NCBI GenBank assembly: GCA_938092015.1
Contig: CALKOT010000032.1
Location: forward strand, 1 to 64,000
From: an uncultured Paracoccaceae bacterium
Lineage (GTDB): Bacteria; Pseudomonadota; Alphaproteobacteria; Rhodobacterales; Rhodobacteraceae
Reading direction: 5' to 3'
Length of the DNA stretch: 64,000 bases
Below, one piece after another: positions 52,386 through 57,511 of this stretch. The notes under the pieces were generated by a model. That model worked only from the letters and a program-made list of their open reading frames with translations, was not told where the DNA came from and ran no database searches. Within the stretch, counting starts at the first letter, position 1. The number at the start of each line of letters is the position of its first letter. A program made the translations under genes and the position numbers.

Positions 52386-53774
52386 TCAGTTATGCTCTGC
52401 CAGAAACTCGTTCACTTCTTCAAAGAACTGATCGAAATAGGGCTGGCCTTCACGAAGGATATGCTCATTTCCCGGAAACTCGATGAAGGTCGCGCCAGGG
52501 ATAAGTTTCGCCAGAAGACGCCCCTCAGCCACCGGCGCCACGCCATCATCCTTGTTGTGAATAACCAGCGTGGGCACATCCAGTTTCTTCGCCATTTCGC
52601 TGACATCGACATCGCCGTTCATAGTGGCGATTTCCAACGCACGCTCGGGACTGCAGGACATCCGTTGCATTTCATCAAAGCTTTCCTTCACTTCTTTCGG
52701 AGCATCGGGAAAGAAGGCGTCGGTAAAGAAGTTGCGGAACATCGGGTTCGGCGACCCCCAGCCCTGCTCAATCAGCGTCTTCGCCGCAGCATGGTAACTT
52801 TCTGAATGCCCATCGTCCCTAAGCATCCGCCCTCGGGCAAACCCGCCATAGAAGATCATGCACGATACTTCATCAGGATGTTCATAGGCATACCGTACCG
52901 AAAATGCCGCGCCCTGACTGATGTCATAAAGTGCAAACCTTTTCAGATTGGCCGCGGCGACCACAGCCTCCATATCTTCGATCATCGCATCGACCGAGAT
53001 GATTGGCGGGTCCCAATCTGAAAGGCCGTTGCCGCGCTGATCAAACCGGACAAGCTGGTTGTGACCTGCAAACCGTTCCAGAAAAGATCGCCAGATCGGG
53101 CTTTGCCATTCGTATTCGAGATGGTTCATCCAGTTCGGCGCCTTCAGAATGGGACGACCTTCACCAACGCTTGCGTATCCGACCTGGGCGCCGTCTTTGG
53201 AAAAGCAGTACTTTACCCGCTGTTGTGCTGAGATTTTCGGAACTACGCGGGGCGGCGGGGCATCCGGGCTCCATTCCCATACACGGATCGGGCGAGAGAT
53301 GTACTTGACCCGTTACGCGCCGAGATCGCGAAACGGCTCCTGAATTCTGTCCTGAACAGTCTGAAGCACCAGGTCTGAGGCCGCTACGCCGCCTGGCACC
53401 GCCAGCCCCTCAAGTCGAGAGGCGACATTGACCCCATCGCCGAAAATATCATCGCCGTCGATGACGATATCGCCGAGATTCACCCCAATGCGATATTGAA
53501 TGCGCGTGTCATCTGCGCTGCCGCTTTCGCGTCTGCCCGTTTCAGCCTGCACATCGATCGCGCAAAGGACGGCATCTTGCGCGCTGCCAAATTCTACAAG
53601 CAGACCATCGCCTGTCGTCTTAACGATCCGCCCCCGGTTTTTGGCGATTTCCGGGTCGATCAGTTCAGCGCGATGGGCTCTTTGCCGGCTAAGAACACCA
53701 TCCTGATCTTGCTCAACCAGCCGTGAAAACCCAACCATGTCAGCCGCCATAATTGCGGCAAGGCGTCGTTCCAT
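52386..53774 (-). pseudogene. class III cyclase-alpha/beta-hydrolase fusion with in-frame stop
   Basis: One frame runs from 53774 to 52386 (about 461 residues) but TAA at 53313-53315 interrupts it after residue 153. The N-terminal cyclase domain has MAADMVGFSRLVEQ, KTTGDGLLVEF and FGDGVNVASRLEGL. Across the stop the sequence continues in frame as RVKYISRPIRVWEW, the usual end of such cyclase domains, then a linker and an alpha/beta-hydrolase (RFDQRGNGLSDWD, YDISQGAAF, HNKDDGVAP, PGNEHILREG). Such fusions are known. A single CAA-type to TAA change would explain it; the parts could also be translated separately. Confidence 0.85.
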
Positions 53775-54925: not shown

Positions 54926-55303
54926 GGGCACGGCTTTCAACGGGTGCAGAGTCTCAAGTAGGTTTGGCGGAAGTGGCAGCGGATGCAACCCTATTACGAC
55001 GCAGGCGTCGTCAACTGCATCGTCGTTAGCCGGGCCGGATGCAGGTTGGGAGCAGATTCAGAAGAGCGCAAAATGCAGCGCAGCGCTACATTGTTGCAAT
55101 GCGGAAAATGGCTGCTTTGAGCCCTTTTTGACCGATGCTCCAGATCACATTGCACGTCGCGAATGGCGGAAGGACTAAGCCGCTTACGCCGCACTGGCGC
55201 TGCTTTGGAGCTTTGCGCTTCGGATCCAATTGATGTGAATTTTGCAATTACCTGAGTCTGACTGACGATTGAGGCCTTCTCACTCTACAGACAGGAGGCT
55301 CCA
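54926..55303. other. intergenic stretch, nothing recognised
   Basis: 378 bp between the dehydrogenase and the integrase fragment, holding divergent promoters presumably. Short open frames resemble nothing. It marks the start of the eroded region. Confidence 0.4.
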
Positions 55304-55924
55304 ATGACAGAGAAGGCATTAAGCCCTTTGCGGCAGCGTATAGTCAAAGACATGTCGATCCGAGGGATTGGCGAAAAGGCGCAGTCCGCACATATTCGCG
55401 GCGTCAAAGATCTGACCAATTTTCTGGGCCGCTCGCCCAACACCGCCACATCCGAAGATCTTCGAAACTATCAGCTTAAAATGAAAGAGAACGACGTGTC
55501 GGCGTCGACATTCAACTCACGGATTGTGGCGCTCCGGTTCTTCTTTGGCGTCACGTGCAGCAAGGAGGAGATGAAACGCTACATGCAGTTCCAGCGCAAA
55601 CCAGCTGGGCAGCCGGTCGTCCTTAGTGTCGAAGAAGTGGGCTATCTGCTGACGGCTGTACCCGGCCCCGGTCTTAAGTTCCTAGCCGCCCTTGGCATCA
55701 GTTATGGCGCCAGTCTCAGGGCGGCGGAGGTTTGCAATCTGCGGTTTGTAAATATCGACAGAGACCGGATGATCATCCACATCGAGCACGGGAAGAACGG
55801 CAAAGATCGGAAAGCGATGCTGTCCTCCAGCCTGCTTGACCTGCTCCGCGACTATTGGCGCGAAGCTTGGCCGGAAGGCTGGCTCTTTCCTGGAAAGTCC
55901 AAGATCAATCTGGTCGTTCCTTGA
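55304..55924 (+). pseudogene. IS91-associated-type tyrosine recombinase, C-terminally truncated
   Basis: 206 residues. N-terminal SAM-like DNA-binding domain (SPLRQRIVKDMSIRGIGEKA, HIRGVKDLTNFLGRSP) and the start of the catalytic domain with LGISYGASLRAAEVCNLRF (first catalytic Arg) and EHGKNGKDRKAML (beta-turn Lys). It ends at LFPGKSKINLVVP, where relatives go on for 80 or more residues with HxxR, the last His/Trp and Tyr. So it cannot be active. A good site (AGGAGG) precedes ATG 55304. It marks past mobile-element activity. Confidence 0.85.
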
Positions 55925-56003
55925 AGTTCGTGAGGGCGTTTCGCTGCTGTCACCTGAATGACCCAGTGATAGTCAGCGTAGGGGGCTAAATTCTTGGCAG
56001 TCG

Positions 56004-56609
56004 CTAGTCCGGGAATATCTGAGATCTGTTGCAGTAATCTTCTGTTGAATGCCCTTTGAACAAGCCGTCTTGTGTGACTAGAACGGACCTCCAGCTTCTG
56101 GCGGCAGCGCCGAGAATGTCGGCGTGTAGACTATCCCCGCACATCACTATTCGATCGGATGGAATGAAAGGCAAAGACTGCTCAACCAGTTCATAAACGC
56201 CAGGGTACGGCTTGCCAAAAAAACGAACGTCAGCAATCCTCTTATCGGCTAACAACTGCCCGTAATGTCCCGGCTCTAGCGAAAAAGAAGCGTCCTAGGG
56301 CGCTGCAAGATCAGTTAGCGATTAAGACGGGGCGTGGATTGTGACCAGCGATGAGGCGAGCAACGACTGACGCTGATCTGTCCAGGCCGCGGATGAAAGA
56401 AACAGAAACCCATCAACGCGATCATACATAGCTTCGTCATCCACCAACCTGACGACCTCACCGTCGATATCCGCCAGACTATCTTCATCAGCTGCAATCG
56501 CACCCCATATGCCTAGGGTCAGGGCGGCCAGTGCTGCGTCGCGGCTGGTGATGATCTCATGATCTTCAACTTTCAAGCCAAGCCGCTGGAATTTCTGGAT
56601 GGCGCCCAT
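56004..56609 (-). pseudogene. HAD-superfamily hydrolase (class IIA type), broken and N-terminally truncated
   Basis: Two pieces of one gene in the same overall frame: 56609-56322 (MGAIQKFQRLGLKVEDHEII, GFLFLSSAAWTDQRQSLLAS) and 56255-56004 (FFGKPYPGVYELVEQSLP, DRIVMCGDSLHADILGAA). Between them the reading is broken by a shift into another frame (PRPVLIAN is visible there) and back (DLAAP), plus a TAG before DASFSLEPGHYGQLLADKR. The N-terminal DxD region of relatives (about 80 residues) is missing, and the upstream side meets the Rieske remnant at about 56610. Confidence 0.85.
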
Positions 56610-57511
56610 GCGGTCCTAACTGGCGACGCGGGGGACTATATCGCGACAGAGATTGCCGGACAGAAGGTCTTTGTGATCCGCGCCTCTGACGGTACTCGCG
56701 CCTTCAGGAATGGTTGTTGCATCGGGGGGCGCGGCTGTTGCCTGAGGGCGCCGGGCGATGCGCTACAATACGGTGCCCTTATCATCAGTGGGTCTGGTGT
56801 GAGGATGGCTCTCTTTTGGCTGTGCCGTGGTGGGGCTATGATGCCGACTTCGATAAGACGAAATGGGCGCTGGATACCATCCAATGGCAGATCTGGAGCG
56901 GCCTGCTGTTCGCCGCTATCGATCCTGCTGAAACACTGGAGGCTCAACTCGGCGCACTGATGCCTGAGATCGCGGTAGAGCCGATAGACAATTATGCGTG
57001 GGTGAAAGAGGAACGGTTGATTTTCGACGCCAACTGGAAAATCTACACTGATAACTTTGTTGAGAGTTACCACATACCAGGCATCCACCCCGCCTTTCAC
57101 CAAGCCATCGATTTCGAGGCCTTTAAGACGGTTGCGCTCGACAGCATGGTCAGAATGAGCGCTCCGCCGAAAGAAGAACTGTTTTATCGTGGAAAGTGGC
57201 TTTGGATGTGGCCCAATTGGACGTTGTCATTGTTCGATGTCAGCAAGAACCCATCTCGGATTAATCCCATCGGCTCTTGACAAACGGAGCTCATCTACAA
57301 CTTTCATTTTGGGGATCTTTAGGAAGACAATGCTCCACAGCGCGCCAAAACCATCGCCGACAACTTGGCCGTCGAACGCGAAGATTTTGAGATCTGCATT
57401 GAAACGCACAAGAATTACGCCGGCGGCGCCTGTAGGCCCTGACCGCTGTCGTATCGTCATGAGCAAAGGTTGACATATTTCCAGCGCCGACTGGCCGAGG
57501 CCGCTCTCTAA
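56610..57511 (+). pseudogene. Rieske aromatic-ring-hydroxylating dioxygenase alpha subunit, decayed
   Basis: Starts inside a Rieske domain (VLTGDAGDYIATEIAGQKVF), shifts frame at about 56713 within the first Cys-x-His motif (CAT and HRGARLLPEG preserved), and continues with CPYHQWVWCEDGSLLAVPWW. The catalytic domain follows (DANWKIYTDNFVESYHIPGI, HPAFHQ), reaching SRINPIGS and a stop at 57278-57280. Further coding pieces follow in another frame to 57511 (NFHFGDL, TAG, EDNAPQRAKTIADNLAV, FEICIETHKNYAGGACRP, TGA, YFQRRLAEAAL). It lacks the first roughly 40 residues. Substrate class cannot be deduced; dead gene. Confidence 0.85.

Follow-up and report, generated by a model that had tools for sequence, protein, structure and literature searches.

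Chimeric pseudogenes that form by short-homology (illegitimate) deletion are products of a general process in bacteria. The locus described here resembles them in having two truncated genes that meet at one breakpoint, an overlap of a few bases, and stops and frameshifts. No feature distinguishes it from other pseudogenes of this kind, and its ancestral arrangement could not be observed. The locus lies in the window (the whole 64,000-nucleotide stretch of DNA that was analysed), which belongs to contig C32 of an uncultured Paracoccaceae bacterium; the draft genome comprises 4.59 Mb in 138 contigs and is 98.49% complete.

One of the two genes is a broken member of the HAD-IIA hydrolase subfamily (TIGR01460), 50-62% identical to its relatives in two pieces. 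The usual form of motif I in HAD hydrolases is DxD. Intact genes of this type are found in other genera of the same family in an arrangement with a DeoR/GlpR regulator and a UgpB-like transporter, whereas the genome studied here has neither a close regulator nor a close binding protein. The second gene encodes a GbcA-like Rieske oxygenase alpha subunit. Cys-x-His and Cys-x-x-His pairs bind the Rieske iron-sulphur cluster, and the window copy differs from such subunits in that its frame is broken across the first Cys-x-His pair and its first ~35 codons are lost.

A third sequence, close to the HAD gene, resembles the IS91-type elements of Roseivivax, Qingshengfaniella and Dinoroseobacter plasmids. 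In these three plasmid relatives, an IS91-family transposase lies 12 bases downstream of a 295-aa integrase. The window has the left end of such an element and 206 integrase residues (66-68% identical), but not the integrase C-terminus, the transposase or the right end. Eukaryotic rolling-circle elements shuffle gene fragments. For Octadecabacter, IS91 elements are reported along with many element-linked pseudogenes (PMC3646047). We found nothing specific in the literature on IS91 integrases and microhomology-made pseudogenes, and make no claim on what is in print.

Materials & Methods

The HAD gene was searched for in 149 genomes of the family, and matches were obtained in 48 (own genome included). 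Neighbourhoods were read for the strongest matches, 11 loci from 9 other genomes, and the remaining 38 genomes, with weaker matches, were excluded. The HAD at one of the 11 loci (L060) is more distant, with 40-42% identity to the three queries. The Rieske locus set comprises 80 of 236 confirmed stretches, all of which were screened for HAD as far as 8 kb or the contig end. For 74 of them, the DNA upstream of the match exceeds 1 kb, and 4 apparently come from genomes also included in the family genome search.

To map the breakpoint, the codons around it were compared with those of 10 HAD and 14 Rieske relatives. For the flanks, we fetched 5 of the 13 other genomes that match the left-flank dehydrogenase and 7 of the 47 others that match the right-flank flotillin.

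Results

Features of the locus are collected in Table 1. As the original prediction had proposed, the minus-strand HAD gene is without its N-terminal part, the plus-strand Rieske gene is without its first part, and each contains frameshifts and stops.

Table 1. Coordinates of the pseudogenes, the join and the truncated element in the window.
Feature	Position	Strand	Basis
Left part of IS91-type element: left end and integrase ORF (55304-55924)	55171..55921	+	Homology to plasmid elements
HAD-IIA-type hydrolase pseudogene, from about codon 81 onwards	55986..56625	-	Pfam, relatives, codon comparison, three-frame view
Join of HAD and Rieske pseudogenes, CTGGC(G) overlap at 56620-56625	56616..56627		Codon comparison
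Rieske oxygenase alpha-subunit pseudogene, from about codon 36 onwards	56620..57511	+	Pfam, paralogue alignment, codon comparison, three-frame view

The HAD gene has lost about 80 codons from its 5' end, and its 3' end is complete. Pfam Hydrolase_like is recognised in the C-terminal piece (E 1.4e-9). TIGR01460 scores 35.8 bits (E 7.1e-9) against the fragment; a shortfall from the whole-protein cut-off (100.15) is expected of a partial sequence. The N-terminal piece (95 aa) has no Pfam match and was identified via relatives, to which it is 50-61% identical in 9 loci. The alignment of an intact relative crosses four stops (three TAG and one TAA), one of them at the join, and reaches the relative's last residue. 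The three-frame view reveals two frame changes. The natural stop is at 55986-55988, 18 bases beyond a premature stop at 56004, where the interval given in the original prediction begins. In 10 intact relatives, motif I and its catalytic aspartate are encoded upstream of the position of the join; the window copy lacks them. The motif I region is thus missing, as predicted for a "DxD" part, but in the 10 intact relatives listed the motif reads DAFGVLN, with Phe at the position of the second Asp.

The Rieske gene has lost about 35 codons at its 5' end and is complete at its 3' end, where its sequence retains the natural stop (57509-57511). The open piece matches Pfam Rieske and Ring_hydroxyl_A, the latter (E 4.4e-10) over profile positions 2-48 of 208 only, and later stops interrupt this domain. 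The main frame contains two TGA stops and one TAG, and two 1-base gaps occur near the 5' end. The Cys-x-His ... Cys-x-x-His motif cannot be read in one frame, as the shift falls across the first pair; the second pair is readable.

Two intact Rieske paralogues are encoded elsewhere in the genome (G000:C45:1563-2561 and G000:C81:517-1515), and their proteins are 91% identical. The best NCBIfam model for the C45 copy is NF058607, with a score far below the cut-off (138 of 670 bits). Nucleotide identity of the pseudogene is 79% to C81 and 76% to C45 (over 869-898 bases), and its protein is 82% identical to that of the intact C45 copy over residues 68-331. The window copy branches beside the C81/C45 pair in a tree of 16 sequences. 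Its named closest relatives, among the matches listed, are from Roseovarius and similar marine Alphaproteobacteria. In a DNA search of three other genomes of the same genus, the Rieske gene was matched in one, and the HAD part had no match in any of the three.

Mismatches between the pseudogene and C81 are distributed 36:25:130 over the three codon positions (about 295 codons), compared with 20:15:129 between the intact C81 and C45 paralogues (333 codons); in the former count, a few window bases beside the join are misplaced at the far 5' end, across a 113-column gap, with small effect. The pseudogene's mismatches are heavier on positions 1 and 2 than those of the intact pair, yet fall mostly on position 3. 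For most of its history, therefore, the window Rieske gene functioned under selection, which relaxed later.

At the join, the HAD residues Ala-Ser-Tyr-Asp-Arg persist as Ala-Ser-stop-Asp-Arg, to base 56625. Rieske sequence is recognisable from the codon at 56620 for Leu36, a residue identical in six of six aligned proteins. A match to an intact HAD relative continues past the join to 56708; the codons beyond the join bear no resemblance to HAD, and this stretch is taken as an over-extension of the alignment. The truncations do share a single meeting point, as predicted, but it is located at 56616-56627, some 10-20 bases further right than the proposed 56605-56612. The bases CTGGC(G) could come from intact relatives of either gene. 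When 3 HAD and 7 Rieske genes were joined at random (200,000 joins), overlaps of at least 5 bases arose in 0.6% and of at least 6 in 0.2%. The parental letters at the join were reconstructed from relatives with protein identities of 50-62% (HAD) and mostly 67-91% (Rieske), so the overlap is approximate. We take it as no more than an indication that a short sequence common to both genes mediated end-joining or slippage.

The original prediction had proposed a look for short repeats at the ends. Apart from the 5-6 bp overlap, only short imperfect repeat pairs are present, and a repeat scan of the region detected no long repeats at the breakpoint. Two of the imperfect repeats touch the join, D12 (13 nt, 85%) and I4 (17 nt, 76%). 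Both are ordinary for the region, in which the scan lists 19 direct and 16 inverted pairs of like kind.

Intact relatives of the HAD gene usually have a different partner. A DeoR-family regulator is encoded head-to-head with HAD in 8 of the 11 loci, across a gap of 225-357 bases. The best NCBIfam model for the regulator is DeoR/GlpR, below its cut-off, and the regulators at the other seven of these eight loci are 56-93% identical to the query regulator. ORF clustering places an ABC ATPase and a UgpB-like binding protein after the regulator in seven of the eight, and at the eighth (L010) the start of an ATPase is readable there. The other three loci (L049, L055 and L060) have no regulator, and the next upstream gene is on HAD's own strand. 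The head-to-head HAD-IIA and DeoR/GlpR pair, mostly followed by the UgpB-like ABC transporter, is recurrent in eight genomes (L050-L054, L056-L058).

No Rieske match was identified in any of the 11 HAD loci, nor in 10 further stretches beside HAD loci except for one distant match (33%) in L215. This distant Rieske oxygenase (L215:10437-11018) is of a different subfamily and is encoded about 7 kb from the HAD/DeoR locus. Likewise, none of the 80 Rieske loci, followed to 8 kb or the end of the contig, has a match to the window HAD, and one of them holds a DeoR-family match (31%). Seven of the Rieske loci (L042-L048) have assorted upstream neighbours, none of which is the window HAD. At L045 (the same locus as L075), a HAD of another kind, classed as phosphatase-like from its first residues, is encoded about 3.3 kb (two genes) upstream of Rieske and does not match the window HAD. 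Four other genomes among the 149 match Rieske strongly, with E 1e-60 or better, and are absent from the nine examined HAD genomes. The search for relatives with an intact divergent HAD-Rieske pair thus came up empty in both sets of loci. The idea that the two genes were once head-to-head neighbours fails in the relatives examined, in which the usual partner of HAD is the DeoR-family regulator; within that set, the outcome is one that the original prediction had itself named as refuting it.

Elsewhere in the assembly, we identified neither the missing HAD N-terminus nor a second HAD of the same subfamily; the sole further match is a 31% identical relative on C52. Close copies of the Rieske N-terminus occur only at the two intact paralogues. 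Beyond these, it gave three weak matches, plus two of 44-48% identity that lie within other long open frames. Close copies of HAD's partner regulator and of the UgpB-like binding protein were not detected in the genome (best 37% and 30%, respectively).

A second scar adjoins the 3' end of the HAD gene. The earlier label of an IS91-type integrase fragment is right, as the sequence matches the left part of plasmid IS91-type elements. The tyrosine integrase keeps the first 206 of about 295 codons, and its C-terminus is missing. Homology to the plasmid elements begins at 55171, near their common left end; at the DNA level it extends as far as 55908-55910, and at the protein level it reaches 55921. 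A single copy of the element gives a weak, gapped DNA alignment that trails to about 55977, so the cut may be blurred and falls in the interval from 55908 to the HAD stop (55986). No significant match to the IS91 transposase is present anywhere in the window (best E 0.79). At least 5000 plasmid records match the integrase, and a single copy of it was found in the genome itself.

The right flank, consisting of flotillin followed by a substrate-binding protein and an ABC permease, is kept in all seven relatives fetched. Inheritance of the gene order together with the flotillin operon was considered and rejected, as neither fragment is present upstream in these seven relatives, for which the upstream DNA amounts to about 6 kb in six and only 0.17 kb in L193. 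The left-flank dehydrogenase occurs without any other gene from positions 40-79 kb, in window coordinates, in the five relatives fetched (5/5). In the DNA at hand for these seven flotillin and five dehydrogenase loci, the dehydrogenase and the flotillin operon are never together. The scar sits between two gene blocks that are unpaired in those relatives. A plasmid origin of the HAD-Rieske block was also rejected, as the block has no DNA match among plasmids. To the left, a gene on the minus strand (52386-53774) encodes a cyclase domain and an alpha/beta-hydrolase, and its frame is continuous but for one in-frame stop that separates them; it is either a young pseudogene or the result of a sequencing error.

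Discussion

We think it probable that the locus is a chimeric pseudogene scar, in which a non-native pair, the HAD-IIA gene and a third Rieske paralogue, was joined 5'-to-5' by one illegitimate join. This join would have occurred at about 56620-56625 via the 5-6 bp overlap, and would have taken both promoters along with the 80 or so HAD codons and 35 or so Rieske codons. The remnants would have decayed after the join, although this order of events is inferred. Most likely, a larger deletion or rearrangement, rather than loss of a shared promoter, brought the fragments together. The most economical history is a single large deletion, and here we infer the deletion, its size and its mechanism alike. 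The ancestral order could have been HAD (-), DeoR regulator (+), transport operon (+), ..., Rieske (+), with a single multi-kilobase deletion extending from HAD codon ~81 through the regulator and transport operon into Rieske codon 36. Such a history would account for the orientations of the two fragments and for a genome in which neither the regulator nor the binding protein has a close copy; the proposed order was found in no genome. The HAD and Rieske fragments may also have reached the site in separate events. Inversion and reciprocal translocation are disfavoured, as the missing halves were not found in the draft assembly (138 contigs, 98.49% complete); loss is therefore favoured over an inversion or balanced translocation.

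The original prediction explained the same scar by a native divergent HAD-Rieske pair, from which one small deletion removed the shared promoter and both 5' ends. One breakpoint does cover both truncations, and some intact Rieske genes have a divergent neighbour, such as the C45 copy of this genome; the unrelated phosphatase-like HAD upstream of Rieske at L045 could also be cited in its favour. The native divergent pair, however, is not borne out, given the DeoR-type regulator that is HAD's divergent partner in most loci and the lack of a match to the window HAD in the 80 Rieske loci, nearly all of which have more than 1 kb of upstream sequence. We regard this origin as very unlikely. Somewhat less improbable, but still unlikely, is that several independent events were involved, with the fragments and the IS91-type element piling up at a rearrangement-prone spot through element-linked deletions or imported DNA. 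The element is itself cut (at some point from about 55908 to 55985) where it adjoins the HAD 3' end, the dehydrogenase and flotillin flanks are unpaired in the 7 flotillin and 5 dehydrogenase loci, and the nearby cyclase-hydrolase gene carries an in-frame stop. Against this, a single breakpoint suffices for both missing 5' ends, the element retains its left and not its right end, and the HAD-Rieske block is without a plasmid match.

A causal role of the IS91-type element in the join is unproven. A one-sided rolling-circle event or an element-anchored deletion could have stripped the right end of the element and stitched HAD to Rieske in the same episode, but we consider this highly improbable. 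If true, IS91 involvement would be a bacterial counterpart of the gene-fragment shuffling carried out by eukaryotic rolling-circle elements. A misjoin within the contig is an equally slight prospect. The assembly is a draft of 138 contigs and holds three Rieske copies, but these differ by 16-24% in DNA, too much for easy confusion, and each side of the join shows its own decay.

The HAD-Rieske locus is an ordinary pseudogene, a piece of genome debris, and the scar has little importance by itself. It draws attention to a recurrent HAD/DeoR/ABC-transporter arrangement, of which the regulator and binding protein are without a close copy here. It also provides a caution, as truncated genes that lie head-to-head can mimic the loss of a divergent promoter, and comparison with relatives reveals that the usual partner is another gene.
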